Shown one piece after another: positions 24,729 through 46,478 of a DNA stretch of 64,000 nt. A program made the translations under genes and the position numbers. The notes under the pieces are model-generated. The model was not told the DNA's origin and did not search any database. It worked only from the letters and a program-made list of their open reading frames with translations. Each line of letters starts with the position of its first letter. The stretch's first letter is position 1. The stretch is from an uncultured Pirellulaceae bacterium (GTDB lineage: Bacteria > Planctomycetota > Planctomycetia > Pirellulales > Pirellulaceae): assembly GCA_937929805.1 (NCBI GenBank), contig CALFUT010000034.1, positions 62,001-126,000 of the forward strand, in the 5' to 3' direction.

Positions 24729-25385
24729 TCAGCCTAAAGCTAGAAAAGAATGAACCAGCACAATCGAAGTTGCGGAGTGTTGTTGCTCATGTTTAGAGAG
24801 ATATTGCGTCGCCCCCTCAACCCAGTCGTTCGATTCTTGCCATCCAAATTCACTGTTGTATCCAGATTCAGCTTGTGGCTCTTTTTTGAGCTGCGCAGCA
24901 ATCCGTTCGATACAACGATTTCTGTCATTGCAGATTACATATCCGACCATGCCAGCGACTGCGTGCCCGTTGCTATACTTGCCTGACGCAAATCGAAACA
25001 CGCCTTCACGTACATAAAGTCTGGCCAGATCATTTGAGTCACTGCGAATACGTTTGCATTCGATCGCTAGGTAAACTTCTTCGTCCCAGCCGTAGGCTAC
25101 AAAAATGTCAATCAAGCCCAAATCGGTACCGTCATCAACTGCGTCAGACTGTGGTTCTCGCTCAAATCTCATTCGCGGTTTGGGAGTCATTCCACATTTT
25201 ACGACTACCATTTGTTGACGCAACAAGTTTGTGATGCCATCTTCATCAGATTCTTTAGAAACCCGTGGATCAGCTGCAATTGCAGGCCAAGCCGTGTGAA
25301 GAATGCTCAGGGCTTTCTTAAGATACCCTTTTTGGATTCTCAGACGCAAGTTAGTGTTTGGGTTTCCCTTGGTTGGTTGATTCAA
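24729..25385 (-). CDS. PD-(D/E)XK nuclease-like protein, cassette A
   Basis: About 218 residues if translation starts at TTG 25385, four bases after the methyltransferase stop and preceded by GGTGGGG. An ATG at 25436, overlapping the methyltransferase by 47 bases, is the alternative. D93, E109 and K111 (LIDIFVAYG ... YLAIECKRI) form a PD-(D/E)XK-type triad, and an upstream helix has EDGIT. Downstream come REGVFRFASGKY and MVGYV. The same signature occurs in the protein at 40700-41419, so the two are homologues. It has no target-recognition or helicase domain of its own and is transcribed with a large adenine methyltransferase, so the likely role is the cleaving partner of a restriction-like system. 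Cleavage activity is inferred. Confidence 0.7.
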   Translation of the reverse strand: MNQPTKGNPNTNLRLRIQKGYLKKALSILHTAWPAIAADPRVSKESDEDGITNLLRQQMVVVKCGMTPKPRMRFEREPQSDAVDDGTDLGLIDIFVAYGWDEEVYLAIECKRIRSDSNDLARLYVREGVFRFASGKYSNGHAVAGMVGYVICNDRNRCIERIAAQLKKEPQAESGYNSEFGWQESNDWVEGATQYLSKHEQQHSATSIVLVHSFLALG

Positions 25386-25389
25386 GCCG

Positions 25390-28300
25390 CTACCCCACCG
25401 GCTCGAACATTTTGGCGAGCACACTGTCTGCGTCATCTTGAGCACGTGCCCTCGACCAGAACCGACGTTGGTTATGCTTGACGACGATGCAACAGTCACC
25501 ATCGTAGATATGGAGTGAGCGTCGAAGTTTTGCTGTAGACGTCAAGGGAGTATGAAGAAGTTCGGCAAGTCGCTCGCTGGCGTTGAACTGATCCGCAGGC
25601 TTCGTGCCGACCTTTCGGTTTCTTGGTTGGTCAAACTGAATAGCTATGGCAGCCACTTCGTTCAATCCAGTTATGACATCGCAGTTAACAGCAACATCCG
25701 ACCCATCGACATCCGCACGAATTGCCTCAGCCAACGAAGAAGCGTATCGCTTCATATGGTCAATGTCTGCAGGCTTCGCTGCATTTGACTTGGAACCGTG
25801 CCGCACGAAATCTAAGTCGAAAGCGACAACGTCTGCAATGTACTCGCGATCCCAGTCGTCAATTTCAAAGTAATCAAAAACGGCTTGGTCGAGGGACTTG
25901 AAGTCGTCTTTGTCGCCGTGCTTTGCTCTTTGGTCAAATTCTTCGATCAAAAAACGGCACTCATTTTCTGATTTTGGAATCTTAAACGGAAGTCTGTTGA
26001 GATCGTTCTGCTCAGCAATCTGTTTATCAATTCCTAGGCGACTTGACGTAAGGAAGAAAAAATAGGTTGCGAGACTCGAATTCATAATTGCCGAAAATGC
26101 TTTAGCGTGCCACACCTCGGCATCATTGATCGGGACTGCAAAGTAAGACCTTGAGTAAACAAGCTTTTCGCGGCAAATCGCACCCACTAGTCGATCGTCT
26201 TGTAGGCTCTGCTTGACAATGCAAAGGGTCGGGTTGTAGACCCAAGAATCGCGAGGACGCTCGAGTTTCTCGTACGCCATTGCAGGCAAACCTTTTGTCA
26301 CTTGGACCCAGCGATTCAACAGTTGATTCTCAAGTTTTGGCAGCCCTACTATTTCGGTTGGAACATCACTGGACAAATTCCCTTTCATGAATCCACGACA
26401 AAGCTGACTATCAAACATTTGAGTAAAATCAAACAAGCTTTCGCTCCCGCCCAAGCTAGAGATGATCCTAAAATCCCTAGGTGTCCCGTACGCTGCCGCT
26501 TTCATCAAATTGGGCTCAGTCGCCAGCTTGTGAATCGGGAGTTTGTGCACTTTCTCAACATGAAGTTCGATCACTCCGTGGTTGACGAAACTCTCGCTTC
26601 TTTCGACCGATGCAAACGTAACCTTGGCGTTTGGACTCGAAGTTGCGTTTGCACCGACGTAAATAAGTGCCGGTTGTTTTGCTGAAGGAAAAAGTTTCTT
26701 GTCATGCAACGCAGACAAGTTCAGCAAAACTCGTGGCTGAATCGTCATTAGCAACTGCTTCTTTGCTTTCAGCGATTGCTCTTCGTGGCTAAAAAAGTCC
26801 TTTGCGCCAATGATCATCGCGAGACGTGCGTTATCTTCGGCGAAGTCGCAAGCCCGCCATAGAAACGGCTGGTCGGGTGGAGAGCGGAACGGCAGTTCGA
26901 CTGGTGGATCATGGCTCTCGCAATACTCGATGTGCGATTGAGAAGTTTGCTGGCTTTTTGAACGCTTGCCTTTCGGCTTCGTCCAAGGAGGGTTGCCGAC
27001 GACAATGGAAAACTGCTTCTTCTGAAACACTTCTTCTTTTGCGAAAGTCTCTTCGTCGAACGCATCGCCGACGAACAAATTGCGTCCTTTGAGGCTATGG
27101 CGAAACTTGAGCTGGTTGACCGAGGATGGCGACGGATCGAGTTCGAACGCCGTCAGGCAAAGGCTAAACGCGGCGATTTCGATTGCCGTCTCTTCCAGAT
27201 CGACACCATAAAGTTGATTTGCAAGGACATCGCGCACAAGCGTCCTGTTTAGCTTCTCGCCTGCTGCCATTCTACGTGCCACAAGTCGGCGAAACGCTTC
27301 AACGAGAAAAACACCTGAACCGCACGACAGATCTAGCACCTTTGGGTTATCGGTTAACGGTTCCTTAAAAAGTGCGTCATCGAAGATTTGTGAATAAACA
27401 AGATCCACAAGGTTGACCGGCGTGTAATGAGTTCCCCGGTCTTTCGCCAGATCCGGATTCCCGGCATATACAAACCGCTCGTAAATCGAGCTGATTAGCT
27501 CAATCGGTATGACCTCAAAATCATATCGCCAAAAATCAAACGATTGCTGGCCACTGGTCAAGTCTTGTCGAATAACGATGCGTCGCGCGACATCCAATTG
27601 TTCTTTCGTGAATTGGTAACTGTCGCTTTCTTCGTCGGCTTTGGGAGGTGGTGGAAATAGATCTCCATTGAATGTGTCACGCATTCGCAATAAGAACTTC
27701 TCCGTCGCGTCAGGATCTAAAAGGACTTCGCTAAAAGAATCGACTTTTAGGCCACGGAATAGAGCAGGCGGCAAAACTCCTCTGGCCTCTAGGTAGGCCG
27801 TGAACAATGTTCGCAACATTAACCGGTGGGCGGACAGCCATTTACAATCTCGCTCTTGAAGAATTTTTGCGGCAGTTTCCAGATCAGTCGCCAGTTGAGT
27901 GTCGATTCGATCCGCTTTCTTGATCCGCTTGCCAAATTTGGTATCCCAGAATTGGCCGTTCTCAAGACTGATTCGATCAAGCTCGTGCTCTCGGAGTTTC
28001 TTCAAGTCATCTACGGCGGCGGTCAAAAGCTCAGCCGGATGTTTTTTCGAATTGTCATCCAGTGGGGCCGGTGGAAGAAACGCGTTCAAAACTCGCACTG
28101 TCGTAGGAGTAACGACCCAAAGCATTCGTCCCAATCCATGATTCCAAGCCGTTCGATGCCATTCACTTATTTGCTCATTGGATGGTTCGGCAGAAAGGCT
28201 CTTGAAGTAGATGCATGGGGCCCCGTTGATTTCAAAAACGTCTGTGATTCCAAGTTTTTTGGGGTTGAGAACTGCATTGTATCGAAACTTGCGATCGGAA

Positions 28301-28425
28301 TTTCCGGGCTCGTTCAGTTCCTTTTGCCCAAAGATGTTTTGCGCATTTCGCCCTCCATCGGTGTCTTGGGTAAAACCAAGCCCGTGAATCAAATCTTGAT
28401 ATTCGGTGGTGATATTGCGGTCCAT
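25390..28425 (-). CDS. Large N6-adenine DNA methyltransferase, cassette A
   Basis: 1011 residues from ATG 28425 (a TTG sits one codon upstream). SAM-binding motif I is VLDLSCGSGVFLVEAF (about 363-378) and catalytic motif IV is VVGNPPW (about 476-482), preceded by SSIYERFV...GTHYTPVNL, typical of gamma-class N6-adenine methyltransferases such as type I HsdM, type IIG and BREX PglX. The C-terminal 450 residues probably hold target recognition. The first 120 residues resemble a degenerate nuclease-like fold (ITDVFEINGAPCIYFKSLS) without an E-x-K. It lies between an XRE regulator (7 bases upstream) and the nuclease gene (4 bases downstream). The architecture parallels the protein at 41416-44439. 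Confidence 0.88.
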   Translation of the reverse strand: MDRNITTEYQDLIHGLGFTQDTDGGRNAQNIFGQKELNEPGNSDRKFRYNAVLNPKKLGITDVFEINGAPCIYFKSLSAEPSNEQISEWHRTAWNHGLGRMLWVVTPTTVRVLNAFLPPAPLDDNSKKHPAELLTAAVDDLKKLREHELDRISLENGQFWDTKFGKRIKKADRIDTQLATDLETAAKILQERDCKWLSAHRLMLRTLFTAYLEARGVLPPALFRGLKVDSFSEVLLDPDATEKFLLRMRDTFNGDLFPPPPKADEESDSYQFTKEQLDVARRIVIRQDLTSGQQSFDFWRYDFEVIPIELISSIYERFVYAGNPDLAKDRGTHYTPVNLVDLVYSQIFDDALFKEPLTDNPKVLDLSCGSGVFLVEAFRRLVARRMAAGEKLNRTLVRDVLANQLYGVDLEETAIEIAAFSLCLTAFELDPSPSSVNQLKFRHSLKGRNLFVGDAFDEETFAKEEVFQKKQFSIVVGNPPWTKPKGKRSKSQQTSQSHIEYCESHDPPVELPFRSPPDQPFLWRACDFAEDNARLAMIIGAKDFFSHEEQSLKAKKQLLMTIQPRVLLNLSALHDKKLFPSAKQPALIYVGANATSSPNAKVTFASVERSESFVNHGVIELHVEKVHKLPIHKLATEPNLMKAAAYGTPRDFRIISSLGGSESLFDFTQMFDSQLCRGFMKGNLSSDVPTEIVGLPKLENQLLNRWVQVTKGLPAMAYEKLERPRDSWVYNPTLCIVKQSLQDDRLVGAICREKLVYSRSYFAVPINDAEVWHAKAFSAIMNSSLATYFFFLTSSRLGIDKQIAEQNDLNRLPFKIPKSENECRFLIEEFDQRAKHGDKDDFKSLDQAVFDYFEIDDWDREYIADVVAFDLDFVRHGSKSNAAKPADIDHMKRYASSLAEAIRADVDGSDVAVNCDVITGLNEVAAIAIQFDQPRNRKVGTKPADQFNASERLAELLHTPLTSTAKLRRSLHIYDGDCCIVVKHNQRRFWSRARAQDDADSVLAKMFEPVG

Positions 28426-28432
28426 CAATTTA

Positions 28433-28810
28433 TCAAGTCGCTGAAGTTGATTTCTTTTTGCTGGAAGGTTTGAGTCTTCGGCTCAACAGTCTTTCCAGTG
28501 CTTCCCAGTCGTTCCCCGACAAGTTGGACTCTGAGGCACGACGGAGAAACTCTCGTGCTTTCGGGTCTTTCAAGCAGGCCAGTGCTTCAGGCAACAACCC
28601 GCTTAGCCGGAAGTACTCAAGCTCATCTGCGTTGAGAGCTAGAGCGAGGGATTTCACAACATCCCTTGAGAGCTTGCTTGTTGCCTTTCCATTCTCAATT
28701 TTTGAGACGTAAGAGTAGTCGATTGATGCTTCTTTGGCCAAGTCGCGAACCGTCATCTTTGCTGATTCACGATCGTAACGAACTTGTTTTCCGAATCTTG
28801 TGTTTGACAT
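28433..28810 (-). CDS. XRE-family transcriptional regulator of cassette A
   Basis: 125 residues from ATG 28810. The N-terminal helix-turn-helix is clear: VRYDRESAKMTVRDLAKEAS, then IDYSYVSKIENGKATSKL. The C-terminal tail is basic (RRLKPSSKKKS). It stops seven bases before the methyltransferase start, so it is probably the first gene of the operon and may act like the controller protein of restriction-modification systems, delaying nuclease expression until modification is complete. That role is inferred from position. Cassette B has no such gene. Confidence 0.88.
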   Translation of the reverse strand: MSNTRFGKQVRYDRESAKMTVRDLAKEASIDYSYVSKIENGKATSKLSRDVVKSLALALNADELEYFRLSGLLPEALACLKDPKAREFLRRASESNLSGNDWEALERLLSRRLKPSSKKKSTSAT

Positions 28811-28976
28811 CTCGGCACTCTCGATTGCTTTCTCCTTTCTTATTGTATCGGAGTTGTTGAATGCCAGTCAACATCATTCGACGCATGAGGTACCGGCCGC
28901 CCGAATCATGGGCACGTCCAATAACCGTTTCGGTTACATCGACCGAAGCGACATCGTTGGCCGAAACCGCCGTGTC

Positions 28977-29216
28977 TCAAAGTGACCCAATCTCATCCCC
29001 GTTCTTTTCCGCAGCGTTGCCAACGTAGAACCGCAGTGTTGTCTCAATCGATTCGTGACGCATCAGTTTCATTTGCGTCTGCGGCATGACCTTTTGAGTC
29101 CAGCGATCCCCGAAGGAGCGTCTGAAGTCGTGGAAGCGTGCGTATTTGGTTTTGAATCCCGCTGATGAGACCACCGTGCCGCTGGCTTCGCCGATCCGAC
29201 TACCGACAACTGAAAC
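28977..29216 (-). pseudogene. Tyrosine recombinase (integrase) C-terminal remnant
   Basis: About 80 codons retain the catalytic end of a phage-type integrase: RFHDFRRSFGDRW carries the H-x-x-R motif, then LMRHESIETTLRFYV with the second catalytic His and the nucleophile Tyr. The N-terminal core-binding domain and first catalytic Arg are missing. The same frame extends upstream into hipA only as non-homologous sequence. It is probably the relic of the enzyme that mobilised this island next to the tRNA. Confidence 0.8.
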
Positions 29217-29256
29217 CCACTCAGTATTCCGGCGGTGATTCGACTTGCGTCGATGG

Positions 29257-30558
29257 TTATGAAAGATCCAAGCGGAATGTGTCGCGGATTTGTTGTGCGA
29301 CGCGTGCGGGGACGCCGGACGATTCCGCGTGCTGTGTCCATGACCCGACGGCACTCGTGACCTCGTCCACGATCCGTTTCGCTTTCGTTTTCTTGATCCC
29401 GCCCGTACTGGCCAACGCAACTAAATCGTTCAGTTCGAAGTCGTCCCGTTTTCCGTTGATGCTCATTTGGTGCTGGCTGGTCCACGCCCCCGATGGATTG
29501 TACGAGTAGGCGATGTCGTATGCCGGGGACAGTTTCCACTGACCGGCTTTGCCCATCAGAAATGCAATATTCTTCACGTGATCGTCTTGGTTTCTGGCCA
29601 CCACGTTGAACACGGCGCGGCGAAACTGCTGCTGCACTTGCGGTGCGGGTAAGTTAAGTTTCAGCATGGCAGCGATCGCTTGCTCGTAGGAATACGCGCC
29701 TGCTTGGTTGAAATCAAAATGTTCAAGGGCTCCCAAGGTTTGCATGTGCAGTTTTCGATTCGTTTCGGTGCGATCAAATCGTTGGGTCATAAAATGGGCA
29801 CGTCCACCTTCGCGATGAAGTCGACATCGGTTCATCTCGATCCCCGCGTCGAGAGCCATCAAATGATACGCGTACTCGATCAACCCGTAGCCTTGAGGGT
29901 CAGCCATTTCTTTGTCACGGTTGTTGCTGATCCCGTCAAATTTCATCAGCCACTGAGTGAATCCAGCGTCGATATCAACTTGTCCCGAGCGGAACTCACC
30001 CGTTTCTTCATTCCACGCCAGAATGGCTTTCGCCCGGGCTCCGCCGGCAGATGTTCCGACGCGAAGAATGTCTTGGATGGCTTCGGCGTCGTCATTCCCT
30101 GATAACTCACCATGTAGCGATTCGCGGGCATTGAGTACTTTGTTAGCGAGATGGACCAGACGCTCAACTTGCACATTTTGTTTTGGTGATGGTATGCCGG
30201 CTATGGTCGGTTTGAACTCGAGTGCTCCCATGCCGCGCGTGCCGATGTAGCGGAGTCGTTCCACGGGGTTCATGGAGGTTGGAGATCGTCCTTGAGTGGC
30301 AAGCCATGCATCGATCAGGGCGTTGCCAAACTTGTCGGGCAGCGAATCCGCCAACAAGCCCGGAAGTCCTTTGAAGGTTTCTCTGGCAAGCGAGGGAAAC
30401 TCAAAGGTGCCTTCGGCAAGCGGTATGGTTGTCGGGGCGACTTGAATACCGCTGGGTACGAAATCAGGGTGGTACTGAAAAACGGCGATGTCTCGGGTTT
30501 CATCCCACGTGACCGCAGCAATGTCCCTGCCCCACAAAATGACTCGTGCGGTGGTCAT
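29257..30558 (-). CDS. hipA: HipA-type serine/threonine kinase toxin
   Basis: 433 residues from ATG 30558. HipA features are clear: the N-terminal subdomain with GLPGLLADSLPDKFGNALID, the glycine-rich loop GTSAGGARAKAI, the kinase core with the ARNQDDHVKNIAF catalytic loop (Asp and Asn present), and the metal-binding SPAYDIAYS. In E. coli, HipA phosphorylates glutamyl-tRNA synthetase and causes dormancy; the target here may differ. Its start overlaps the stop of hipB (ATGA), the usual coupled antitoxin-toxin order. The length matches full HipA, so it looks intact. Confidence 0.93.
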   Translation of the reverse strand: MTTARVILWGRDIAAVTWDETRDIAVFQYHPDFVPSGIQVAPTTIPLAEGTFEFPSLARETFKGLPGLLADSLPDKFGNALIDAWLATQGRSPTSMNPVERLRYIGTRGMGALEFKPTIAGIPSPKQNVQVERLVHLANKVLNARESLHGELSGNDDAEAIQDILRVGTSAGGARAKAILAWNEETGEFRSGQVDIDAGFTQWLMKFDGISNNRDKEMADPQGYGLIEYAYHLMALDAGIEMNRCRLHREGGRAHFMTQRFDRTETNRKLHMQTLGALEHFDFNQAGAYSYEQAIAAMLKLNLPAPQVQQQFRRAVFNVVARNQDDHVKNIAFLMGKAGQWKLSPAYDIAYSYNPSGAWTSQHQMSINGKRDDFELNDLVALASTGGIKKTKAKRIVDEVTSAVGSWTQHAESSGVPARVAQQIRDTFRLDLS

Positions 30559-30902
30559 TGGTCGCTACCCCATTCCCATTCTTTTGGCTGCTTCGTTGTG
30601 CGAGGGGAGGACGCATGTCTTCGTTCCCGCTTCTTCGCGGCTCGTTCGATCGGGCGAATGTCTGGGCTGGGAAGCAGTGCCAACAGATGCTCCTTCAGGT
30701 TCAGGGCAAGCATGACGCGAATGAACGTGTCGAGAGAAACTCCTTGGCCGTTTTCCATGCGGCTGATAGTCCGCCGGGAAACGCCGGCGGCTTGAGCCAG
30801 CTTCTCTTGGCTGATATTTTTCAGCAGGCGAACGGCCTCGAGCTTTTTGCACAAGTCGCGCTCTAAGGCTTGGCTGCTAAATTGATTGTTTGTTTGAGAC
30901 AT
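30555..30902 (-). CDS. hipB: HipB-type XRE antitoxin and repressor
   Basis: About 115 residues from ATG 30902; ATGs at 30932 and 30941 in the same frame are alternatives, and no start has a strong ribosome-binding site. The helix-turn-helix is typical: KLEAVRLLKNISQEKLAQAA, then GVSRRTISRMENG. A basic tail (RAAKKRERRHASS) follows. It would bind and neutralise HipA and repress its own operon. Repeated TTGATCA boxes lie at and upstream of the start. Confidence 0.9.
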   Translation of the reverse strand: MSQTNNQFSSQALERDLCKKLEAVRLLKNISQEKLAQAAGVSRRTISRMENGQGVSLDTFIRVMLALNLKEHLLALLPSPDIRPIERAAKKRERRHASSPRTTKQPKEWEWGSDQ

Positions 30903-30905
30903 ATC

Positions 30906-31035
30906 TTGATCAGAATTTGATTTTTGGATCATATTGATCATTATATGGCACAAAACTGGTCGGTAGACTGTAGTTTGCGTAAAATGTGACTCAAAATAAT
31001 GCTTTTTAGCATAATTTGATCAATTTATTGATCAA
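30906..31035. promoter_or_regulatory. Operator array upstream of hipBA
   Basis: Palindromic boxes: TTGATCAG at 30906-30913, TGGATCAT at 30925-30932, TTGATCAT at 30934-30941, and two perfect TTGATCAA copies at 31016-31023 and 31028-31035, twelve bases apart. The spacing and position suit a dimeric XRE repressor such as HipB. The distal pair is also 64 bases upstream of the divergent cupin gene. Binding is inferred. Confidence 0.6.
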
Positions 31036-33600: not shown

Positions 33601-36600
33601 TTAGTCGGCTCGAGTGCTTTCCAGCAAGACTTCCAGTTGCTCGCGGAGGTCGGCGATCTCTCGGGGACGCGTGTTGGTGGCCGAGCTTAGCCTGCTGCCG
33701 ATGCTCTGAAAACGGTCCGGAGCATAAAACTGCTCGACCTCGTTTTCCAACGCGGCCAGCCACGCAGGCAGATCGACTCCAACCCCCGTCGTCGACCGAA
33801 GAAACGCCTGAGCTTCTTGCGAGAGTTTTTCAAAAGCACGTTGGGATGATCGTTCCGTGGGGTCAATCATCGCTGGAATAACTTGAGCACGCAGGCGGTC
33901 GATCTGAAGCTGATGCACGAACCGGCCTTCGATGCGGCGACCCACGGATGCCATTTCCATGGAGTATTGCTTGCGAAGGCTTGCGTAAGACGCTTCAAAT
34001 TTGTCGGCTTCCCCGCCCACTTTTTCCAGCAGCGACTTCCGCCACATTCGCGCCACATTGTTTTTTTGTTCGCGAACCAGAATGCGATGGGCCCATGCGA
34101 CGGGCTTCAGCTTCCACGACACCCTGTCGTATCGGGATCGCAATCGCAGGAAGTCGAGCAGCATGTACAACGAACCGCCGTGATCCGACTGGGTCGTCGT
34201 CGTGTTGTAGTCGCGATACTCGTTGTAATTTTCGATGACCGCTTCGAGAATCAGTGTCAAATAAAACGCGGCATTCTTCAATGGGATCTGATTGCCAATG
34301 TCCTCGAACAATCGCGTCTCAATTTCGGCGGGCGGATTGACGCTAACTTCTTCCAGCCAGTCTTTTACACCATGGTGCAAGATGCCTCGAATATTCCCCG
34401 CGTGGAGGAACTGCTGAGTGAATAGCCCGGTGCCGTACTCTTGAATGAAGCTGACAAGCTTGTCCCACGGGCCATTCTCGCGCGAGTCGAAGACTTTTTC
34501 CAAAACGCTTAGGCGAAGCGTTTCACCATGACTTAGCCAGTACGAAAGCGTGGATTCGGTGAGTAACTGGACGCAGTCAAAGAGTTGCGTTTCCTCTTGG
34601 ACGAGTGCGTTGTTCAGATCTTCCGGGTCAGCGTCAAGCAAGTCATCACGCAGTTGCTCGCTGGAACGAATCAGCGAGTGTACCATCGAGGTGTACCCGA
34701 CTTTGAAAAGTTCATCGAACTCGGTCACCGCGCCCTGGCCAATCGGATTGTTGCGTTCCATCGCCAACGCGGTTCGCAGTAGTTCCGTTGTTTCCGCCAA
34801 CAGACCCAGAGCCGGCATTCGCTGCAATAAGTCCAGCAGGTGAGTTTGCAGTGTGCGAGCACAAACGATGCTGCCCGGGTCACCATTTCGGGACAGCGGC
34901 ACGTACAGTAATGGGTATCGGTGAAGGCACTGTACGAATTCATCAAAGTGGTGCTGCACCAGTTTGGGGTCTTCCAGCAGAACGGCGGCGAACACGCTGA
35001 TCAGCTGAGAGTTATCGGTGGCGTATTCGTCGTCTTTCTCGGACGGCAGTGTCCCCTCGGTTGCGTCCAGCTGTTCGTTAAGCGGTTGCCGATCTAGCAA
35101 ATGGCCAATCGCTCTTATGACGGAACCCAATAGCCTGATCGCGCTTTGTGTTTCAATGTTGGCGTGGATGGCTTGTTCGAGCAAAGCTTCCTTGTGAGCC
35201 CGATGCAGATCGTACCGCATCATGGCCTCTTGGCTTGCTCCGGCCGTGGGGATCGCATAGCGGTTGATGGACTCAATCAAGTTGGTCAACTGGTCGCGAT
35301 GTTTAACCGCTTGGTCGAGCCATGAGCGTACGATTTCACGTCGGTTGCGGAGACTTTTTTCGATGGCCGGATTTAAGTCTTCCGATCGAGTCACCGGCAA
35401 CGGCACGGTCGAACTGACTCGCCAAAAACTGGCCACCGTTTCTTGGAACTCCAACCGGTCAAGCACTCGTTCCACTTCCGCCTCGAGTGCGCCGTCCGTT
35501 TCATCATCGCTTTGGCCGAACACATCCCCATCAAATCCGTCGTCGGTCGAATCTGTGTACGTCACATTGTCGTAAGCCGCTTCGTACAAAGAATCGTCAT
35601 CGTCGTCTTCTATTCCTTCGCTGTCATCTACATCCTGCGCGTTTTCATCTTCAGGCAGGCCGAGTCCATTTTTTTGGTCTGGGACGACCAGTAGCCGGAA
35701 GTCAGGCACGTTCCAATGCTGACCGGCGTTGGCCTCGATGTAGTCGTAGAATTTTCTGATTCGATTCCAAATGACGTCTGGATCCAACTGGGCATCCGAA
35801 TCCGTCCCTTTGGCCGCGGCAGGACGCGGATTCTTTTTCGATGCAATCGCTTCCAGCAACGATTCCTTTTGAACGCTAATCCATTGGTCGACCAGCTGGT
35901 GGAACGAGCTGTCTCCCATCTGCAGGGGCACGGTTTCCGCCTGGCTGACCCAATGGACTAGCAACGCGCTTGCTGTTTGGTAGTCGCCGCGGTGCATCAG
36001 CGCAGAAACAACCAGCGAGTACGCCTTAGGCGAATCGAATAGCTGCGCGTGCTGCGACCAGAACGAGATATCACCCGTTTCTGCGCCGCCCTCGTGCCAT
36101 AACTTCAGGGCATCGGCGACCAATTGAGCCGCGTCGAAAATTTCTCGCGGATCGACCGCATCAACCGACGAGACCTCATGTGCCGCAAATTGACGCCACC
36201 ACCGAACCAGTTCCTCAAAGTCAGACCGAATCGATCGGTAAAGCTGATCTTCACTCTTGGCAGCCGCTTCGGACAGCAGTTCTGAGCACACAGCAAAGAT
36301 CCGCTCCATCAGATCAACCAGTTCGAAGACACGATGGTCTCTGACCGTGTTCTCCAACGCCGGGAAAAGGCTGTAGTTGGCATCGAAGCCAAGAATGTTC
36401 CACGGGTCGACGATCGCTCCGCAGTGGATACCCTGCTTGAGCAAGGCAATGGCTTCGGGGACTTTCTGGAGGGCGGTCTGCAAGTCACCTTCCCGGCAAG
36501 CAAGGTGAATCGTGCCCAGCAAGCAATCGATATGGCAGACCATTCGCACCGAAGCGACCGACACACTGTCCAGTTGCTTGATCGCGGCTTCTGGATAACC

Positions 36601-37902
36601 CATTCGTGCAAAGATCGATGCCAGCCGACAATTGACCAACTGATAGGCTCGGCGGTGCGATAGACAGGCGTTCAAATCTTGGCGGGCCGCGCCGAAAGGT
36701 TGTTGGCGAACTTTTAGCTCACCCTGAAGTCGCCGACGATGGCGTTCGGGCAACCGTGCCAGCAGGTCAGTGTAAAATTGGTCGCGGTAACGAGCGATGA
36801 TCGGAAGCAAAGAGGACAGGGTCGTTTCGGAGTCAAATGCGCCCGGGCCACGGCCCGAGACGCCCGCCGCCATTAGGATGGTTCCCGCCAGCACGGCGCC
36901 GGCTTCGGATAACGCTTCGTCGCGGTCGACGGGTTGGTCCGGATCGTCGGCGACTCGATTGACACGGTCCATCAATGCCGCCAGCGTCACGTCATGAATC
37001 ACAAATCGATGGAAGTAGCCATCGTTATCGACTGAATGTTCGTCCCACTGTCCAAAATGATAGTTGGGTCGCTTGTTGGCTGGGTGATCGAAGTCGAATG
37101 CACGCGGATCGATCGCCAATTCTTCAAGCCGATCCGGGGCAAAATGAGCGGCATGCAGAAGGGTGTCGTCGGTTTGAGAGAGGTACTTCAGGGCTCGTTC
37201 GACCACGTCGTGATAGCAACCCGTCGCGAGCCCCGCGCCTTGGACGTAAACCGGAATTGGTCGAATCCATTCTTCCCTGTACGGTTCAACTCGACGCGTC
37301 TCAAGCGTTGCGATCGGACGGTGCCCAAGGTAGTCGTTCAACTTTTCAAATGTGGCGTCGCTCAGCGATCGATCGGTTCGTGCTGCGGTGCCAGTGGTGT
37401 TGATTTCTCGAAGGACGGTTTCGATTGCTCGTGCGATGAAAAAAGAATTGAACAAGAAGTTGGGCGAGCGTCCAAAAATCAGGTCGGCGTGCTGCTGTTG
37501 ATAGCGGGGCAGCAAGTGTTCGAAAACGATTCTGAGCGTTGTGCTTGCTTGCGTAGAATCGCGAAACACGTCGCTTGTTGTTTGAAGTTGATTGAGCCTT
37601 CGCTTCAGTAGGTGATGAACCCTTTGGGCTGCGTAAGGGTGATTGTCTGAAGCAACGTCATCTTCCGTGTCGCTGCCTTTGGCAACGTCTTCTCGCTCGA
37701 TCGTTTCGGCAGCTTGCCCGACATTGTGCGGATCAAGATCGCCGTCCGATTCACATTCAGTGGTCGCCGCTAGTTCGGACGCGAACAGCTGGTCTAACGC
37801 TCGGTAAGTCGAAGCATCATGGTTGCCATCAGAAAAATTGATGTATCCCAGAACCTGATCGGCGCATGCATCCGTCGAGGGTGCTTTGGGTGAATGAGCC
37901 AT
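33601..37902 (-). CDS. Very large hypothetical protein (1433 residues)
   Basis: 1433 residues from ATG 37902, with no signal peptide and no clear membrane segment. Composition is largely helical, with an internal acidic patch around residues 755-800 (DVDDSEGIEDDDDDSLYE). An early Cys/His-poor region mentions no known catalytic motif; RVEPYREEWIRPIPVYVQ and later TPR-like helices (GYPEAAIKQLDSVSVASVRM) are visible. It resembles long planctomycete-specific cytoplasmic proteins, but I cannot assign a function. It stands alone between two plus-strand secreted-protein genes. Confidence 0.75.
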   Translation of the reverse strand: MAHSPKAPSTDACADQVLGYINFSDGNHDASTYRALDQLFASELAATTECESDGDLDPHNVGQAAETIEREDVAKGSDTEDDVASDNHPYAAQRVHHLLKRRLNQLQTTSDVFRDSTQASTTLRIVFEHLLPRYQQQHADLIFGRSPNFLFNSFFIARAIETVLREINTTGTAARTDRSLSDATFEKLNDYLGHRPIATLETRRVEPYREEWIRPIPVYVQGAGLATGCYHDVVERALKYLSQTDDTLLHAAHFAPDRLEELAIDPRAFDFDHPANKRPNYHFGQWDEHSVDNDGYFHRFVIHDVTLAALMDRVNRVADDPDQPVDRDEALSEAGAVLAGTILMAAGVSGRGPGAFDSETTLSSLLPIIARYRDQFYTDLLARLPERHRRRLQGELKVRQQPFGAARQDLNACLSHRRAYQLVNCRLASIFARMGYPEAAIKQLDSVSVASVRMVCHIDCLLGTIHLACREGDLQTALQKVPEAIALLKQGIHCGAIVDPWNILGFDANYSLFPALENTVRDHRVFELVDLMERIFAVCSELLSEAAAKSEDQLYRSIRSDFEELVRWWRQFAAHEVSSVDAVDPREIFDAAQLVADALKLWHEGGAETGDISFWSQHAQLFDSPKAYSLVVSALMHRGDYQTASALLVHWVSQAETVPLQMGDSSFHQLVDQWISVQKESLLEAIASKKNPRPAAAKGTDSDAQLDPDVIWNRIRKFYDYIEANAGQHWNVPDFRLLVVPDQKNGLGLPEDENAQDVDDSEGIEDDDDDSLYEAAYDNVTYTDSTDDGFDGDVFGQSDDETDGALEAEVERVLDRLEFQETVASFWRVSSTVPLPVTRSEDLNPAIEKSLRNRREIVRSWLDQAVKHRDQLTNLIESINRYAIPTAGASQEAMMRYDLHRAHKEALLEQAIHANIETQSAIRLLGSVIRAIGHLLDRQPLNEQLDATEGTLPSEKDDEYATDNSQLISVFAAVLLEDPKLVQHHFDEFVQCLHRYPLLYVPLSRNGDPGSIVCARTLQTHLLDLLQRMPALGLLAETTELLRTALAMERNNPIGQGAVTEFDELFKVGYTSMVHSLIRSSEQLRDDLLDADPEDLNNALVQEETQLFDCVQLLTESTLSYWLSHGETLRLSVLEKVFDSRENGPWDKLVSFIQEYGTGLFTQQFLHAGNIRGILHHGVKDWLEEVSVNPPAEIETRLFEDIGNQIPLKNAAFYLTLILEAVIENYNEYRDYNTTTTQSDHGGSLYMLLDFLRLRSRYDRVSWKLKPVAWAHRILVREQKNNVARMWRKSLLEKVGGEADKFEASYASLRKQYSMEMASVGRRIEGRFVHQLQIDRLRAQVIPAMIDPTERSSQRAFEKLSQEAQAFLRSTTGVGVDLPAWLAALENEVEQFYAPDRFQSIGSRLSSATNTRPREIADLREQLEVLLESTRAD

Positions 37903-38402: not shown

Positions 38403-40166
38403 ATGATCTATCAAAAACTGATTTTGCCTAATCTTCCAAAAATCACCTTCGCTTTTCTTGTGGGCATGGCCATCGTTCCGAGCGATCTGCATGCGCAACG
38501 GGTTCAAGGCGGCAGTGTCCTCGCTTCCGATGCGGTCATCCACCGGGCCGGATTGATGGTTGAGTGGTCTTCTCAAGCGCCAGTCGGAGCCAGCAATCAA
38601 CTGGTTGATTGGGAGCTGATGATTGATGAGAACCAAGCAACGACGACGGTCGAAGTACGTTCGGGTAATCGCCGCGAGGTGATTTCGGAATACGACCGCA
38701 ATGCACTTGGGGAACTTTTGGGGGTTGCCGGCGCTGAGGAACTGGGGCAGGCTCGCAGAGAGCACATGCTGGCCGAGCTTGCGGCGCGAGGGAAAAAAGA
38801 TGTTGAAGTTACGCTTCAAACATTTCAGCAACCTAAAGCAATATTGTTCCTCTTGTCGGACAGCGGCGATGTGACCGCGCTTGACGCCAACACTGGGAAG
38901 ACTCAATGGCTAAGCCGAGTCGGTGCCGGTTCGTCGGAAGGCATCGGGTTGGGGGCAAGCGAGAATTACGTTGCGGTCGTGCGCGGGTCGGTGCTGCACT
39001 GTTTGGAAGCTTCAACCGGAAAAGAGCTGTGGTCCAAAAAGTGTAAGTATGCCGTTGGCTCTTCGCCCGCCGTCACCGAGAAGCACATCATGGTTCCGTT
39101 GACCGACGGTCGGCTAGAACTGTTCCCATTAGAAAGCCAAGGTTTGGGTTCCCATGCCTTGATGGCGTTGGGCGAAGGAACGGCGCAGCCTTTGGTTACC
39201 GCGAGCAGCGTTTCATGGCCAACGATGCGAGGTGAGTTGAATGTGATGATGAGAAACGGGAACACACACGCGATTAGCTATCGGTTGCGTGCAGACGACG
39301 CGATCGTATCGGAAGCAACTTCCGATGGCGAAAACCTTTACGTGGGTTCATTGGATGGTTTTCTCTACGCGATTGATGAAGATCGGGGATCTGTGAATTG
39401 GGCGATTTCCCTAGGCGTCGGCATCTCCGCTTCACCCGTTCCATTGGGCAAGTTTGTGTACGCGATTTCGGGTGATGACGAACTTTACAAAGTGATGGCT
39501 GAGACAGGCGAGCCCGCGCCAGGTTGGGATAAGCCACTCGAAAAAGTCAAACGATACGTGGGAGCCAGCGAACAGAATCTCTATTTGATGGATTCGCAAG
39601 GTGCGTTGGTTGTTGTTGACCGTGATTCCAGATCCATCGTGAACCGGATTGCGGTCGGACAGATTGATCTTGTGTTAAACAACTTTAAGAGCGATCGGTT
39701 GTACATTGCCAGTAAGTCAGGAGTTGTCCAATGTGTTCGCGAAGTTACCAGCGAACGACCGTTTTTCCACGATGATGAAATCGTCGCTCGTACTGAGAAG
39801 TTGAGTTCAAATGAAGGCTCAGGATCCAAGAATGGATCAGGGTCTAAAGACGGCTCAAGTTCCAAGCAAGATTTGGGGTCGAAACAGGGGTCTTCCAATT
39901 CGAATCCGTTTGCGGACTCGGGCGACGAAAACCCATTCGGTTCCGGTGGTGATGATCCCTTCGGCGGTAGCGCGACCAAGGACCAAGGAAGCGCGACCAA
40001 GGATCAAGGCAGCGGCACGAAGGATGAAGGTAGTGGCACGAAGGATAACGGCAGTGGTACCAAGGACGAAGGAAGCGGGACCAAGGGGCAGGATGAAGAC
40101 CCATTTGGCGGCTCATCTGAAGACCCGTTCGGTGGCGCATCGGATGACGATGATCCGTTTGGTTAG
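38403..40166 (+). CDS. Secreted PQQ-like beta-propeller protein with low-complexity tail
   Basis: 587 residues from ATG 38403 (a TTG at 38400 is also possible), with a signal peptide ending near DLHAQ. Residues 150-450 contain several PQQ-type blades: GDVTALDANTGKTQWLSRVG, VLHCLEASTGKELWSKKC, GFLYAIDEDRGSVNWAI and LYKVMAETGEPAPGW. BamB and quinoprotein-like propellers share this pattern, but no quinone-binding disulfide pair is evident, so it is probably a binding scaffold. The last 130 residues are a Gly/Ser/Lys/Asp repeat region with several DPFGG motifs. Confidence 0.85.
   Translation: MIYQKLILPNLPKITFAFLVGMAIVPSDLHAQRVQGGSVLASDAVIHRAGLMVEWSSQAPVGASNQLVDWELMIDENQATTTVEVRSGNRREVISEYDRNALGELLGVAGAEELGQARREHMLAELAARGKKDVEVTLQTFQQPKAILFLLSDSGDVTALDANTGKTQWLSRVGAGSSEGIGLGASENYVAVVRGSVLHCLEASTGKELWSKKCKYAVGSSPAVTEKHIMVPLTDGRLELFPLESQGLGSHALMALGEGTAQPLVTASSVSWPTMRGELNVMMRNGNTHAISYRLRADDAIVSEATSDGENLYVGSLDGFLYAIDEDRGSVNWAISLGVGISASPVPLGKFVYAISGDDELYKVMAETGEPAPGWDKPLEKVKRYVGASEQNLYLMDSQGALVVVDRDSRSIVNRIAVGQIDLVLNNFKSDRLYIASKSGVVQCVREVTSERPFFHDDEIVARTEKLSSNEGSGSKNGSGSKDGSSSKQDLGSKQGSSNSNPFADSGDENPFGSGGDDPFGGSATKDQGSATKDQGSGTKDEGSGTKDNGSGTKDEGSGTKGQDEDPFGGSSEDPFGGASDDDDPFG
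39966..40091 (+). repeat. Six tandem 21-base coding repeats
   Basis: Six in-frame units encode GS[AG]TKD[QEN] (the last is GSGTKGQ), near the end of the PQQ-propeller gene. Units differ at synonymous and third positions, so the array is not brand new. Copy number could vary between strains. Confidence 0.85.
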
Positions 40167-40230
40167 TCTGTCGGAGAAGCGAGGTTTGCGTCTAAATTCT
40201 TCAGGCTTTGTCGCAGGTGCGCTTTTTCAA

Positions 40231-40301
40231 AACGCGGAGTCGCAGAGAGCGCAGAGGATTTCCGCGAATGCGAACTCTGCGTTCTCAGCGTCTGTGCGTT
40301 T
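40231..40301. repeat. Dispersed palindromic repeat at the hsdR breakpoint
   Basis: The left arm, starting AACGCGGAGTCGCAGAGAGC (40231-40257), is nearly complementary to the right arm at 40275-40301 (CTCTGCGTTCTCAGCGTCTG onward). The minus-strand translation gives NAQTLRTQS. A second copy is at 45082-45152. It lies where the hsdR fragment ends. Confidence 0.75.
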
Positions 40302-40321
40302 CTAGATTCTTTTGCATCCGA

Positions 40322-40699
40322 CGTGTGCCAGAACACGCCCGCCTTTCGCGAGCCGGGTTGCACCACGTCGCCGTAGGTGGCTCGGCGTTCGCGGACAACG
40401 TCGTCGTCAGAATCGGCAGCCGCGATCGTGGTGGCGCGGACGGCTTCGCGGACTCCGTGGAACTGATGGTAACCGGCGATCTTTTTGATCAGCGAGTCGC
40501 CATCGTCTTCAAACAGGACGAAGTACCGCATGTAATCCAGAAACAGCTCAGGATCGAAGAAGCCGCGAACGACTTTCTCCAACTGGTATTCCAGCAGCGG
40601 CCGATCGTCTTCGTTCTTGATCGTATTCCACGGCATGAACCGTTCTTTGTTGGCCGTCAGCGAACCGACTCGCGCCGTAATCCCATCGCTGATGACTGG
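40322..40699 (-). pseudogene. hsdR: Type I restriction HsdR internal fragment
   Basis: About 126 codons match the HsdR segment after the nuclease domain: VISDGITARVGSLTANKERF, MPWNTIKNED, FEDDGDSLIKKIAGYHQFH and finally GVFWHT just before the Walker A site. Both the N-terminal PD-(D/E)XK domain and all helicase motifs are missing. The fragment is in frame with, and immediately after, the TAG stop of the nuclease gene at 40700. Downstream it runs into the palindromic repeat. It cannot be a working translocase or nuclease. Confidence 0.85.
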
Positions 40700-41419
40700 C
40701 TATTCACGGTTTAGCCATACATGGCGAAATTCTATGTCGGGCGCAGGATCGCTCGTTTCGAGATAAGAAAAGTTCCTTTCATGGACAGACACATATGTCT
40801 CTTGCGCAAACAGAATCGTGTTCGTACGAGGGCAGACCGAAGGACCTCGCTTGGTTTTGATGCTGTTCGACTTCTCTAACGCGTCACTGAGCTTGGGGAT
40901 TGCTTCGTATCCTGAAGCACAATAGCCAACCATCATCGCCGATAGCATACACCACGCATACTTGCCCTCTACAAACCTGATAATGCCTTCGTTGCAGTAG
41001 TGAACACCAACTGTATGCTTCCTATCAACTGGCTTGCATTCCACAAATAGCCCGTCTTGCGTTCGCCGATAAACTTGGCGTCCCGAATGGCGGATTCCAA
41101 AGACTAAATCGGGCATCGGATCGAGCTGGCTACCATCAAAGCCACGAAGTTTTTCTTCCCGTGTTATTTTCGAGATCAAATCGCCGTTGAAGCCGTCAAC
41201 TTTGTCGGAGTCGAATACGTCATCGAGCAAGACCTCATGCAGCTTCTGAGTGATCGTATCTTCGTACGCATTCTCTAAATCGAACTCAGCTTGGGAAAGT
41301 CCGCGGATATGCGTCCACGCAACCTTGATTGCATCTTCGACAACCAGAACGAATGCGATTGGCAACGGCGGATGCGGAGGTGCGAGTTTCGGTGTTTCTT
41401 GAAACATGCCAAGACTCAT
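40700..41419 (-). CDS. PD-(D/E)XK nuclease-like protein, cassette B
   Basis: 239 residues from ATG 41419, which overlaps the methyltransferase stop (ATGA). D104, E127 and K129 (MPDLVFGI ... GLFVECKPV) form the PD-(D/E)XK triad; upstream is NAYEDTITQKL and downstream NEGIIRFVEGKY and AMMVGYC. All four blocks match the protein at 24729-25385, though overall sequence has diverged. The partner is the adenine methyltransferase directly upstream. A restriction-like nuclease is the simplest reading. It ends at the exact junction with the hsdR fragment. Confidence 0.75.
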   Translation of the reverse strand: MSLGMFQETPKLAPPHPPLPIAFVLVVEDAIKVAWTHIRGLSQAEFDLENAYEDTITQKLHEVLLDDVFDSDKVDGFNGDLISKITREEKLRGFDGSQLDPMPDLVFGIRHSGRQVYRRTQDGLFVECKPVDRKHTVGVHYCNEGIIRFVEGKYAWCMLSAMMVGYCASGYEAIPKLSDALEKSNSIKTKRGPSVCPRTNTILFAQETYVSVHERNFSYLETSDPAPDIEFRHVWLNRE

Positions 41420-44400
41420 TTCGCGCCCTCAAACACAGAGAAGTAGTCGCGAAGGATGTCCGCAGCTAGAAGCCGGGCTCGGCTTGGAGTCCAATATCGG
41501 TATTGGTTTAAAATGCCGACAACGAGTCGACCAGCATCACGGCGAACGATTCGGCTTGCACCAGTCTTCGTTGCGAGTTCAAGCATGGAATCATCGACAA
41601 CGGATTCAGGTGAACCTTCCGCATCAGAACTCGAAATGTATAAGAACAGATAGGCGGCGGAAGTTGGGGCCGCCGTCATGCTAACAGTGATTTCGACGCC
41701 AACTCGTTTGGCGAAGGGGACAAGCAGCCGCTTCAAATGCTTCGTGAAGATTGCCGACTCATCTCGATCAACTCGTGCACTTCCAATTCGACCTATTTCG
41801 TCATGCGGGTTCCGAACTTTGAGCGTGTCAGCAATGACTTGCACATCGCGCGGCTCTAGGCCAAAAATCTCGGCAAAGAATTCGTCAATGTCTTTAAATA
41901 CTGAACTCTCTTCCGCTATTAGACGCTTTGACAGTTTGGCTATTTTCCTCCGCTGTGCCAACGAGAGGTTTTCAAACGGAATTAGCCGACACCGGTCGAA
42001 ATCGGATTTCCGAATAACAGGTCTTTCCGAGCCAACGCTGGCACTTGTGCACAAAAGGTAATACGGCCAAATGTGGCTATGGACGAACAGCTGGAGATAT
42101 CTCGTGAGCGAATCCGCGTCATCATGCCCCTTAGCTGAGTATCCGTAGAAACTCTGGTTGAAAACAGCATCCTGCTGACACAGGAGCGCGTTTCCCATTT
42201 GGCGGTCCGTTCGCAGTGACTGTCGCAACAGTAAGAGCGGTCCCCGATAAACTTGGAGTGGGTCTTCTCCTTCTTCGTCAACTATTCGAGTCTCATCCAA
42301 TGTTGGCAGCTTGAAAGGCTTACACTTAGAAACGTCGACAACGAACTTGCTCTTTAATTCATCCGCCTTTCCGATATCTGGCATACCGTGAAGCAATGAC
42401 GCGTCTGACGGTGGTCGCCTACTACTAACTACGTAGCCTTTACGACTTACAAGGCCCAACGTTGTTTTCCAGTATTCATCAATTTCGGATGACTTTGAAT
42501 TGACGATTTTCCGTGCGACTTGAACGTCCAGACTGGTTCCGATTGTCAGAGTCTTCAATAGCCAAGGCTCAAGTAATACCTCTCCTACGCTCACCGTTCT
42601 CGCTGAGTCCGTGTCAATACGCAACGAACCGACTTTATTCTCTTGCATGTCTGCTTGAGGCGAGATGAACCAGAACTCGTCCTCAGGATGCGGTCTTTTA
42701 TTTTGGGCGAAAATCATCATGAATGGCTGGTCCATGTCCGGCCAAACATTCGATCGTCTCAGATTGGAGCAATTAACGATTCCCGTAAACTTGATGAGGT
42801 TGAAAAGCGACTTTCGAGTGTTCGCTGCAACCTGCCCTTCTTTGAAAAGTGTTCGAGAAGGCATTGCCATGGCAATTCGACCGCTGGGTTTACACCACTG
42901 CGTAGATCGCCAAAGAAACGGTAAGTCCGGAACTCCATCAGGATTTTGATACTCAGCGCCGGCCTGTTCGTCGTAGGCAGCAACTACCAGTTTGCTTACA
43001 GCATTCAACTCGATAGCAAGCTCATCGTCATCACGAATGCGCGTCCACGGCGGGTTAGAGATCACGACATCAAAAGCCCCGTCGAATGACGAATCAACGT
43101 GGCGTCCCAAGCTGCCGATGACGGCGCCGGTATCGCAGTCTTCTTCACGACGATGATTAAAGAGGGTCAAGTCGTCCAAATAGTTAAAGCGAAGCTTCTC
43201 AGGTGGAACTGGTTTGGGATCGAGCTCAATCGCAGTGAGGTAGAGACTTAATGCCGCTAAACGAAGCGCTGAATCACTAATGTCAAAGCCACAGAGTTGC
43301 TGCTCTAATATTCGCCGAATGAGCTTTGTATCCGGACGTTTTCCCGAAGCAATCCAGTGTTCCCGATACAGGCGTCGAAAGGCCAATACTAGAAAAACGC
43401 CTGCCCCGCATGCTGGGTCGAGAACCCTCGCCTTGTGTGGATCAGCGAGTCCATCGAAAACCTCATCAACTATCGTTGTCGCAATGTGACGCGGCGTGTA
43501 ATGAACACTCGTTGCCTCCGATTCGTCTTCTTCCCATTTCCAACTGAAGGCCTCGTAGACTTGGCTGAGTAGGCCAACAGGAACATGGGCGAAGTCGAAT
43601 GTTGCCCAATCGAAACGATGCTGGTAGTCGTCAGAACCAACTGGTTCATGTCCGCGAATTATCGCGGACAGGTTTTGATAGACAATTTTCGAGTCGTTCA
43701 ACCCCTCAAAGAAACTTCTTGTCCCGCCTGTGCTTCCGCGGTCCTTAAATGGAAGGAAATCACCGTTGAATGTTTCATCCAGCCAACGGCTAGTTCGGTA
43801 GGCATTTTCTGCGTTATCAAACCCAGCCTTGATTGAATTAGCGGTCTGACAAATCTTCGGAACGTCCTTGTCCGTGACAATTCCGCGATCGCACAAAAAG
43901 CGAAAGAACAACGCGCGCCCAATGAGCGAAAGCGTATTCTCCCTACCAATCTGCCGCCGTATTCGATCTATGCCAGTACGAAGTAAGCTGAGCATTTCGT
44001 CAAAGACAAGACTCGGCTCGCCAAGGTCGTCGTCTGGCACATTTGCACGAACGAGATTCGCGAAGAAATTGATGGCCTCCGTGGAGTCCGCTTGAAACGT
44101 TCTCCAACTGGGGTCTGTGTCTTCAAGCGAAACTGGCGTTACGTCAAGTAGGCCCGGTTTCACGACAGCGAGATACGCTCGTTCTCCACGGCACGCAACG
44201 TTACGGCTTAGTTTCTTGATTCCCTTGTCCGGATTCGGAGTCGTCGCGAGACGAGACGCATTCACGTAATAGAGGAGGGGGCGATTGCTGCTCTCGATGA
44301 CGCCGTCGGGTCTAAGCTCTTCCCCGTCTTCGACGTTGACCAGATCGAGGTACTCCAATACCTCCGGTCTGGGCGCAGAAAGATCGCGGATGTTTTCGCG

Positions 44401-44439
44401 ATTTACGCCGTATCGTTCGAGTTCAGACGAGACATTCAC
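41416..44439 (-). CDS. Large N6-adenine DNA methyltransferase, cassette B
   Basis: 1007 residues from GTG 44439; no in-frame ATG is nearby. Motif I is VLDPACGAGVFLVLAF (about 339-354) and motif IV is VVISNPPWTRI (about 458-468), preceded by VYEAFSW...SVHYTPRHIA. The N-terminal 110 residues contain RPDGVIESSNRPLLYYVNAS, which looks like a nuclease-fold strand pair with the E-x-K lysine lost. The C-terminal 500 residues probably recognise the target. Length and domain order match the cassette A enzyme at 25390-28425, yet the two are not close copies, so they may recognise different sites. Confidence 0.88.
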   Translation of the reverse strand: MNVSSELERYGVNRENIRDLSAPRPEVLEYLDLVNVEDGEELRPDGVIESSNRPLLYYVNASRLATTPNPDKGIKKLSRNVACRGERAYLAVVKPGLLDVTPVSLEDTDPSWRTFQADSTEAINFFANLVRANVPDDDLGEPSLVFDEMLSLLRTGIDRIRRQIGRENTLSLIGRALFFRFLCDRGIVTDKDVPKICQTANSIKAGFDNAENAYRTSRWLDETFNGDFLPFKDRGSTGGTRSFFEGLNDSKIVYQNLSAIIRGHEPVGSDDYQHRFDWATFDFAHVPVGLLSQVYEAFSWKWEEDESEATSVHYTPRHIATTIVDEVFDGLADPHKARVLDPACGAGVFLVLAFRRLYREHWIASGKRPDTKLIRRILEQQLCGFDISDSALRLAALSLYLTAIELDPKPVPPEKLRFNYLDDLTLFNHRREEDCDTGAVIGSLGRHVDSSFDGAFDVVISNPPWTRIRDDDELAIELNAVSKLVVAAYDEQAGAEYQNPDGVPDLPFLWRSTQWCKPSGRIAMAMPSRTLFKEGQVAANTRKSLFNLIKFTGIVNCSNLRRSNVWPDMDQPFMMIFAQNKRPHPEDEFWFISPQADMQENKVGSLRIDTDSARTVSVGEVLLEPWLLKTLTIGTSLDVQVARKIVNSKSSEIDEYWKTTLGLVSRKGYVVSSRRPPSDASLLHGMPDIGKADELKSKFVVDVSKCKPFKLPTLDETRIVDEEGEDPLQVYRGPLLLLRQSLRTDRQMGNALLCQQDAVFNQSFYGYSAKGHDDADSLTRYLQLFVHSHIWPYYLLCTSASVGSERPVIRKSDFDRCRLIPFENLSLAQRRKIAKLSKRLIAEESSVFKDIDEFFAEIFGLEPRDVQVIADTLKVRNPHDEIGRIGSARVDRDESAIFTKHLKRLLVPFAKRVGVEITVSMTAAPTSAAYLFLYISSSDAEGSPESVVDDSMLELATKTGASRIVRRDAGRLVVGILNQYRYWTPSRARLLAADILRDYFSVFEGAK

Positions 44440-44560
44440 AGTGTTTACCGAAGTTGAGCTTCCTGCGGGCGGTTCAATTCAAAATTGTAGAAAAGAGCTG
44501 TTCTTTCTCCAATCCGGATGCCAGCACAACTGGTGTCGGCGAAAGTCGTGTCAAGTCTGG

Positions 44561-45076
44561 TCACAGGGCAATACACATTTCAAAGAAACTTACCCGACTC
44601 TCGTAAAAACGCCGGTTCAAAGAGACATTGTCGCGGATCGCCGCCTGTAGTTTTTCGGACTCGTGAAATTGAGTGGCTAACTCGCGGGTCAAGCCCTCCA
44701 TCTTTTCGGCGAAGGGGACGCCGTCGTCTTCCACCTCTTCGGCTCCGACGTAGCGACCGGGCGTGAGCACGTAGCCATGTTCGGCGATCTCGTCCAACGT
44801 CGCGCTCTTGCAGAAGCCGGGGATGTCCTCGTAAGCGTCTTTGTCTCGCTTCCACGCATGAAAGGTGCTGACGATCTGCGCGGTGTCTTCGTCGGTGAAG
44901 GCCCGGAGGACTCGGTCCACCATGTAGCCCAACTTGCGGGCGTCGATGAAGAGCACTTCGCCGCTGCGGTCGCGGAAGGCGGCGGCTCCTCGGCCTCGCT
45001 TCTGTTTCGTTTTGGTCAGGAACCAGATGCAGGCCGGTATCTGCGTGTTGGTAAAGAGCTGGCCAGTTGGTGAGGT
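44561..45076 (-). pseudogene. hsdM: HsdM C-terminal fragment, truncated at both ends
   Basis: The frame begins at [18 protein letters not shown] and keeps the HsdM C-terminal region ([58 protein letters not shown]), then loses homology after AAIRDN near 44624. The catalytic NPPF half is absent, and the upstream side is occupied by the palindromic repeat at 45082-45152. It has no start codon of its own within the homologous part. Confidence 0.85.
44721..44833. repeat. 113-base direct repeat of hsdM 3' region, copy 1
   Basis: Bases 44721-44833 and 46356-46468 differ at a single position by my reading. Both encode the HsdM segment from [10 protein letters not shown] to EVEDDGV. Near-identity including silent sites points to recent duplication or gene conversion within the locus. 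Confidence 0.85.
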
Positions 45077-45081
45077 TTTAA

Positions 45082-45152
45082 AACGCGGAGACGCAGAGAG
45101 CGCAGAGGAGATGCGCGTATCAAAGCTCTGCGTCCTCAGCGTCTCTGCGTTT
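45082..45152. repeat. Dispersed palindromic repeat at the hsdM breakpoint
   Basis: Second copy of the element at 40231-40301: arm AACGCGGAGACGCAGAGAGC onward (45082-45108) and its near-complement at 45126-45152. It separates the rhuM stop from the truncated hsdM fragment. Confidence 0.75.
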
Positions 45153-45164
45153 CCAAACATTGCG

Positions 45165-46220: not shown

Positions 46221-46355
46221 TTTTTGCCTCCGACGGGTAGCTCAAATCCCAATGCCTTCATGTTTTGGCAGATGGCTTTTTCGAGCTTGGCGGACTCGGC
46301 GAATTGGTCGGCAAGTTCGGTGGTGAGCGTGGCCATCTTGTCTGCAAACGGAACT

Positions 46356-46468: not shown

Positions 46469-46478
46469 GCCAACTTCC

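Follow-up and report, generated by a model that had tools for sequence, protein, structure and literature searches.

The window analysed here, a stretch of 64,000 nucleotides from an uncultured Pirellulaceae bacterium (contig CALFUT010000034.1, positions 62,001 to 126,000), contains two gene cassettes, both on the minus strand (24729–28428 and 40700–44439), in which an N6-adenine methyltransferase of approximately 1010 amino acid residues (M) is followed by a small protein of 218 or 239 residues (S). We read these cassettes as members of a restriction-modification (R-M) family whose nuclease has been split off and which probably serves to defend the cell, in compact form, against foreign DNA. 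We consider it rather likely that M–S is an R-M type system at all, and it is plausible that specificity resides in the methyltransferase and cleavage in the small protein.

Gene Organization of the Two Cassettes

In the first cassette, M1 (25390–28428, minus strand; 1012 residues, with a TTG start at 28428 or an ATG start at 28425) is a type IIG-like N6-adenine methyltransferase, which is matched by the Pfam profiles Eco57I (4.6e-15) and N6_Mtase (5.9e-13) and by the PADLOC profile REase_MTase_IIG (6.5e-45). It is separated by 4 nt from S1 (24729–25385, minus strand; 218 residues, TTG start), a predicted PD-(D/E)XK endonuclease in which the catalytic E, D and ExK residues are conserved upon alignment with 14 homologues. 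In the second cassette, M2 (41416–44439, minus strand; 1007 residues, GTG start; Pfam N6_Mtase 7.2e-18) shares an ATGA overlap with S2 (40700–41419, minus strand; 239 residues), also a predicted PD-(D/E)XK endonuclease. M1 and M2 both match the Pfam families N6_Mtase, Eco57I and MmeI_Mtase, and both carry the NPPW motif. A preliminary description of this DNA had reported the two pairs, as well as a set of motifs common to S1 and S2 (EDxIT, D...ECK, EG[VI]xRFxxGKY and MVGY), and both observations were borne out; S1 and S2 align in BLASTP with E = 2e-7 (27% identity over 99 residues).

The same description regarded the cassette as composed of two genes. The M–S pair is real, but the unit usually comprises three genes, and the range then assigned to the first cassette in fact included an HTH regulator (28433–28810, minus strand; 125 residues). 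This XRE/CapH-like protein (Pfam HTH_3 2.8e-9; PADLOC capH 2.9e-9) is encoded by the gene that opens the operon, 4 nt ahead of M1, and an HTH gene of the same kind occupies the same position in the sister locus L038. Upstream of the regulator gene, a consensus scan identified a promoter-like site, TTGACT-18-TACAAT (28842–28871, minus strand), with 10/12 matches, in a region where the number of such sites is not above chance. No regulator was found before M2, and no ACTG-N10-CAGT LexA boxes were present in the upstream stretches read before the window cassettes.

The cassette had, in addition, been considered a repeated one, a term that the relation between the two copies does not sustain. M1 and M2 are 25% identical (BLASTP E = 5e-54) and are separated by the deepest split of the midpoint-rooted family tree; a recent duplication of the cassette was therefore rejected, and the genome holds two independent cassette lineages, 12 kb apart. 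A third, strongly diverged M–S pair is present on another contig of the same genome (locus L049, contig C22, 554–4386).

S as a Predicted PD-(D/E)XK Endonuclease

Among 15 diverse S homologues, Asp97, Glu113, Lys115, Gly132, Phe136, Tyr141, Tyr153, His203 and His216 are invariant, and Glu52, Arg135 and Met150 nearly so. The AlphaFold2 model of S2, built from 45 aligned sequences (mean pLDDT 91.2), displays the core alpha-beta-beta-beta-alpha-beta order of the PD-(D/E)XK fold and has Glu53, Asp104, Glu127 and Lys129 at the catalytic positions of the superfamily, the last three of these being conserved in the 45 S sequences. Foldseek alone retrieved nothing significant for S2 (best E 0.56). Re-alignment of the Foldseek candidates placed OkrAI (Z 8.4 over 149 residues), BamHI (7.8) and BglII (7.4) on top, followed by McrC, NucC, EcoRII and DrdV, among others, with one unrelated protein, Rep15, in this group; the seven best solved matches are all classed as restriction enzymes, at a moderate similarity (Z 8.4 at best) that we count against the R-M reading. 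No sequence relative of S was found among solved structures. Fold and motif together make it likely that S is a nuclease, and the nuclease fold that the preliminary description had assumed was obtained in the prediction and its structural matches, as a PD-(D/E)XK restriction-endonuclease-like fold.

The Methyltransferase M

The nearest folds of the M2 AlphaFold2 model (pLDDT 86.5) are CamA, the best match, BrxX, LlaGI, DrdV, MmeI and type I M subunits, with CamA, BrxX, DrdV, MmeI and BpuSI matching over the whole length. NPPW is invariant in 37 M sequences, and the methyltransferase signature of M is intact. Like the type IIG/IIL enzymes DrdV, BpuSI and MmeI, M combines an N6-adenine methyltransferase and a recognition domain in one long chain; M2 aligns with DrdV from residue 1 through residue 861 (Z 23.5) and also with BpuSI and MmeI.

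Type IIG enzymes carry their own nuclease in the N-terminal domain. In M, by contrast, none of the 37 sequences has E/D-x-K at the expected N-terminal strand (residues 57–59 of M2, a position placed by sequence and predicted strands and not by a structure of the N-terminal domain alone), and nearly all have Y-[LIV]-[VI] there. The M N-terminal domain has no Pfam match; that of the homologue L017 matches residues 7–110 of a type IIG model (E 7.5e-6). Judged by its sequence, this domain may be a dead nuclease. Since it is devoid of the ExK motif, S would replace the in-chain nuclease, and cutting is assigned to a separate protein that type IIG systems do not have. As a search for the in-chain nuclease motif gave none, M–S is not type IIG in the strict sense.

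The recognition region of M shows no visible excess of diversity over the remainder of the protein, and no abrupt swaps were observed in 131 pairs with 70–80% core identity, a range in which the control, the MmeI family of the same phylum, provided too few pairs. There is thus no sign, relative to a control that is too small, of the exchange of specificities that characterizes many R-M families, and we weigh this, with that caveat, against the R-M reading.

The PADLOC 'type IIG' models are the best PADLOC matches of M, so that the methyltransferase half is already on record as a single-chain enzyme. For one of the models, PDLC03623, the only strong matches among 246 planctomycete genomes are M genes of S-bearing genomes; in one of these, G284, M and S are located on separate, truncated contigs. 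None of Pfam, NCBIfam, PADLOC and PHROGs has a family that contains S. The cassette thus matches no named system through S in these libraries, but it does through M alone, so that one of its two halves already goes by another name. Annotation pipelines would see only 'type IIG' or 'N-6 DNA methylase' and overlook what is likely to be the cutting half. It belongs to a widespread unnamed system, present on plasmids and in eight phyla or more, which would illustrate a way of splitting a single-chain restriction enzyme.

Linkage and Distribution of M and S

Profile and pattern searches yielded 72 loci beyond the window, from whole genomes of Planctomycetota, plasmids of alpha-, beta- and gammaproteobacteria, 45 named genome contigs and two IMG/VR contigs. 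Azonexus hydrophilus DSM 23864, Sphingobium sp. SYK-6 and Malonomonas rubra DSM 5091 are among the hosts of copies. Linkage was counted in the 69 uncut loci, L010, L014 and L078 being cut by contig edges, and in all 69 S is directly downstream of an M relative; the occurrence of S homologues away from a methyltransferase, which had been raised as an argument against a joint function, was never observed. The junction is mostly an ATGA or a one-base stop-start overlap (1–4 nt). Conversely, 294 planctomycete genomes contain ten strong matches of the M profile (E 1e-60 or better), all of them in S-bearing genomes. M and S form an obligate two-gene unit. The pairwise identities of M and of S correlate at 0.97 (1830 pairs from 61 systems, the pairs not being independent), according to which the partners appear not to have been shuffled.

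Eleven of the 294 planctomycete genomes, about 4% of the sample, contain the system. A phage origin was rejected, since 50,697 phage records gave no match and IMG/VR contributed just two contigs. In L018, L019, L060, L093 and L094 the M gene is truncated or split although the frame of S is still open, and some copies may thus be decaying or switchable.

Upstream Regulators and the LexA Clade

The regulator slot upstream of M is conserved, and the kind of regulator that fills it follows the tree. The branch of M1 has an XRE/CapH-like protein and an alphaproteobacterial branch a short XRE protein; betaproteobacteria and some plasmids have MerR-like regulators, and LexA fills the slot in a branch composed of Thermodesulfobacteriota, Acidobacteriota, Nitrospinota and Kiritimatiellota. 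In L051–L072, the lexA gene is the first in the M–S operon; lexA fragments are kept at two loci of this branch, and L092, a member of another branch, has its own LexA upstream. The LexA proteins of the clade contain both LexA Pfam domains, align to Escherichia coli LexA at E about 1e-34 and keep the AG cleavage site, the serine of GxSM and the lysine of TLK. The sequence ACTG-N10-CAGT, which has the layout of the LexA box of E. coli, is present within 71 nt of the lexA start in 13 of 17 LexA operons (0.02 expected), the remaining four having near versions of it. In the genomes of L056 and L062, the lexA gene of the operon, placed by coordinates, is the sole LexA match. The combination of AG site, Ser-Lys dyad and LexA box, by which an SOS (LexA) regulon is recognized, was found in the LexA clade; it was not found for the window cassettes.

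The upstream regulator is presumably a repressor and would determine how strongly the operon is expressed. With LexA in this role in one clade, the operon there should therefore rise with DNA damage, and would be SOS-induced. Classical R-M needs the methyltransferase on steadily to protect the host, and a LexA-repressed methyltransferase is odd for such a system and counts against the R-M reading. The LexA branch thereby poses a testable question, namely why methyltransferase and endonuclease should share one DNA-damage switch. A literature search, with most subscription papers outside its scope, returned no LexA-controlled R-M operon and no match to the M–S pair, and the word LexA is absent from a large 2025 review of R-M biology (PMC12707154).

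Comparison With BREX, DISARM and Type I Systems

Over 593 residues the fold of M resembles that of BrxX (Z 25.6), but M–S is devoid of BrxA, B, C, L or Z companions, and no BREX companion genes (BrxC/PglY, PglZ, BrxB and others) were identified between or beside the cassettes among the genes scanned. Against the PglX models M scores 43 bits or less, the cut-offs being 400–900. Membership in BREX, DISARM and MADS was rejected, as only the shared methyltransferase core matches, far below the cut-offs. A related methyltransferase core is also present in type I R-M (HsdM/S/R) and type ISP (LlaGI, LlaBIII) systems, from which M–S differs in having neither an HsdS-like gene nor a motor subunit and in the size of S, only ~230 residues. 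The preliminary description had seen no resemblance to HsdR/HsdS, BREX or DISARM in either half, which holds for BREX and DISARM, but overlooked that HsdM and HsdR fragments adjoin the second cassette.

Proposed Mechanism and Alternative Explanations

We propose that, in an operon with the order regulator–M–S and without an ATP-driven motor, M, type IIG-like and equipped with its own target-recognition domain, would mark the host copies of its site, and S, a separate BamHI-like PD-(D/E)XK endonuclease made by translational coupling from the same transcript, would cut DNA without the mark, M–S in this way restricting unmarked DNA. S would probably be brought to, or licensed at, the site of M, although we see the chances that S depends on M for its site as evenly balanced. 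In the LexA clade, damage triggers could be, for example, foreign DNA being cut or the cutting of under-methylated host DNA. A more specific, and for us only tentative, version is that of a split type IIG family whose cutting arm is now a separate BamHI-like protein and whose LexA clade would be the first R-M type operon wired directly into SOS, so that damage would turn on both enzymes at once, either to protect the cell by feedback from cutting its own DNA or to kill it.

In its working, M–S would most resemble a controller-bearing type II system. It shares with such systems a regulator, a methyltransferase and a separate, predicted PD-(D/E)XK endonuclease of ~220 residues, as separate M and R genes and a small HTH regulator in one operon (no regulator was found for cassette 2), and the order regulator–M–R is that of C-protein systems such as BamHI and PvuII (PMC12707154). 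The predicted structure of S resembles those of OkrAI and BamHI, and its closest folds are homodimeric type IIP enzymes. M–S could then be an ordinary type II system in which a BamHI-like S dimer reads and cuts its own palindrome, M only protects and the two proteins never meet. We hold this to be somewhat unlikely, given that M is twice the usual size of a type II methyltransferase and has a type IIG build, with a recognition domain and an extra C-terminal domain, and that deeply diverged S proteins keep a common set of residues beyond the active site, while independent type II endonucleases tend to have little in common. M–S also differs from type II systems with a C protein and a BamHI-like endonuclease in the ~1000 residues of M, in regulators that are XRE, MerR-like or LexA, and in S, which is one conserved family in many phyla and has no sequence relative among solved proteins.

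For the LexA clade, we also considered a damage-triggered suicide or abortive-infection module, normally silent, in which SOS would cause M and S to be made at the same time and to destroy DNA, perhaps with S cutting methylated instead of unmethylated sites. A cleavable LexA as the first gene, the LexA box at the promoter and an M–S overlap that leaves no delay between modification and cutting agree with it, and it is retained for this clade because classical R-M would not put the methyltransferase under damage control; it seems improbable to us, LexA being confined to one clade and L092; in the majority of members, the two window copies among them, the regulator is of another kind or none was found. 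Slightly more improbable still is a function outside defence, as an epigenetic or DNA-repair module formed by an orphan-like methyltransferase and a repair nuclease. CamA, to which M is structurally closest, is an orphan regulatory methyltransferase, and LexA regulation in one clade would suit such a role, but the patchy distribution (11/294 planctomycete genomes), the plasmid copies, the location in damaged R-M loci and the several broken copies listed above are typical of defence genes.

Genomic Neighbourhood

Cassette 2 is lodged in the middle of a broken type I R-M locus (window 40163–46795), with an hsdR piece at 40163–40636 and hsdM pieces from both termini at 46217–46795 and within 44561–45340; a RhuM-family gene (PADLOC PDC-S05) is located between the hsdM pieces. 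Plasmid copies of M–S adjoin AbiE, SIR2, DarT and other genes. We count these defence-rich settings in favour of the R-M reading.

Cassette 1 is adjoined (window 28977–30953) by a HipA kinase toxin with an HTH partner, a HipA/HipB-like pair, and by a tyrosine-recombinase (integrase) fragment. Between the two cassettes, an open frame of 1433 residues (window 33601–37902) has no Pfam match. In L046, a second methyltransferase, of the N6_N4_Mtase kind (1264–3129), overlaps the start of M by 4 nt.
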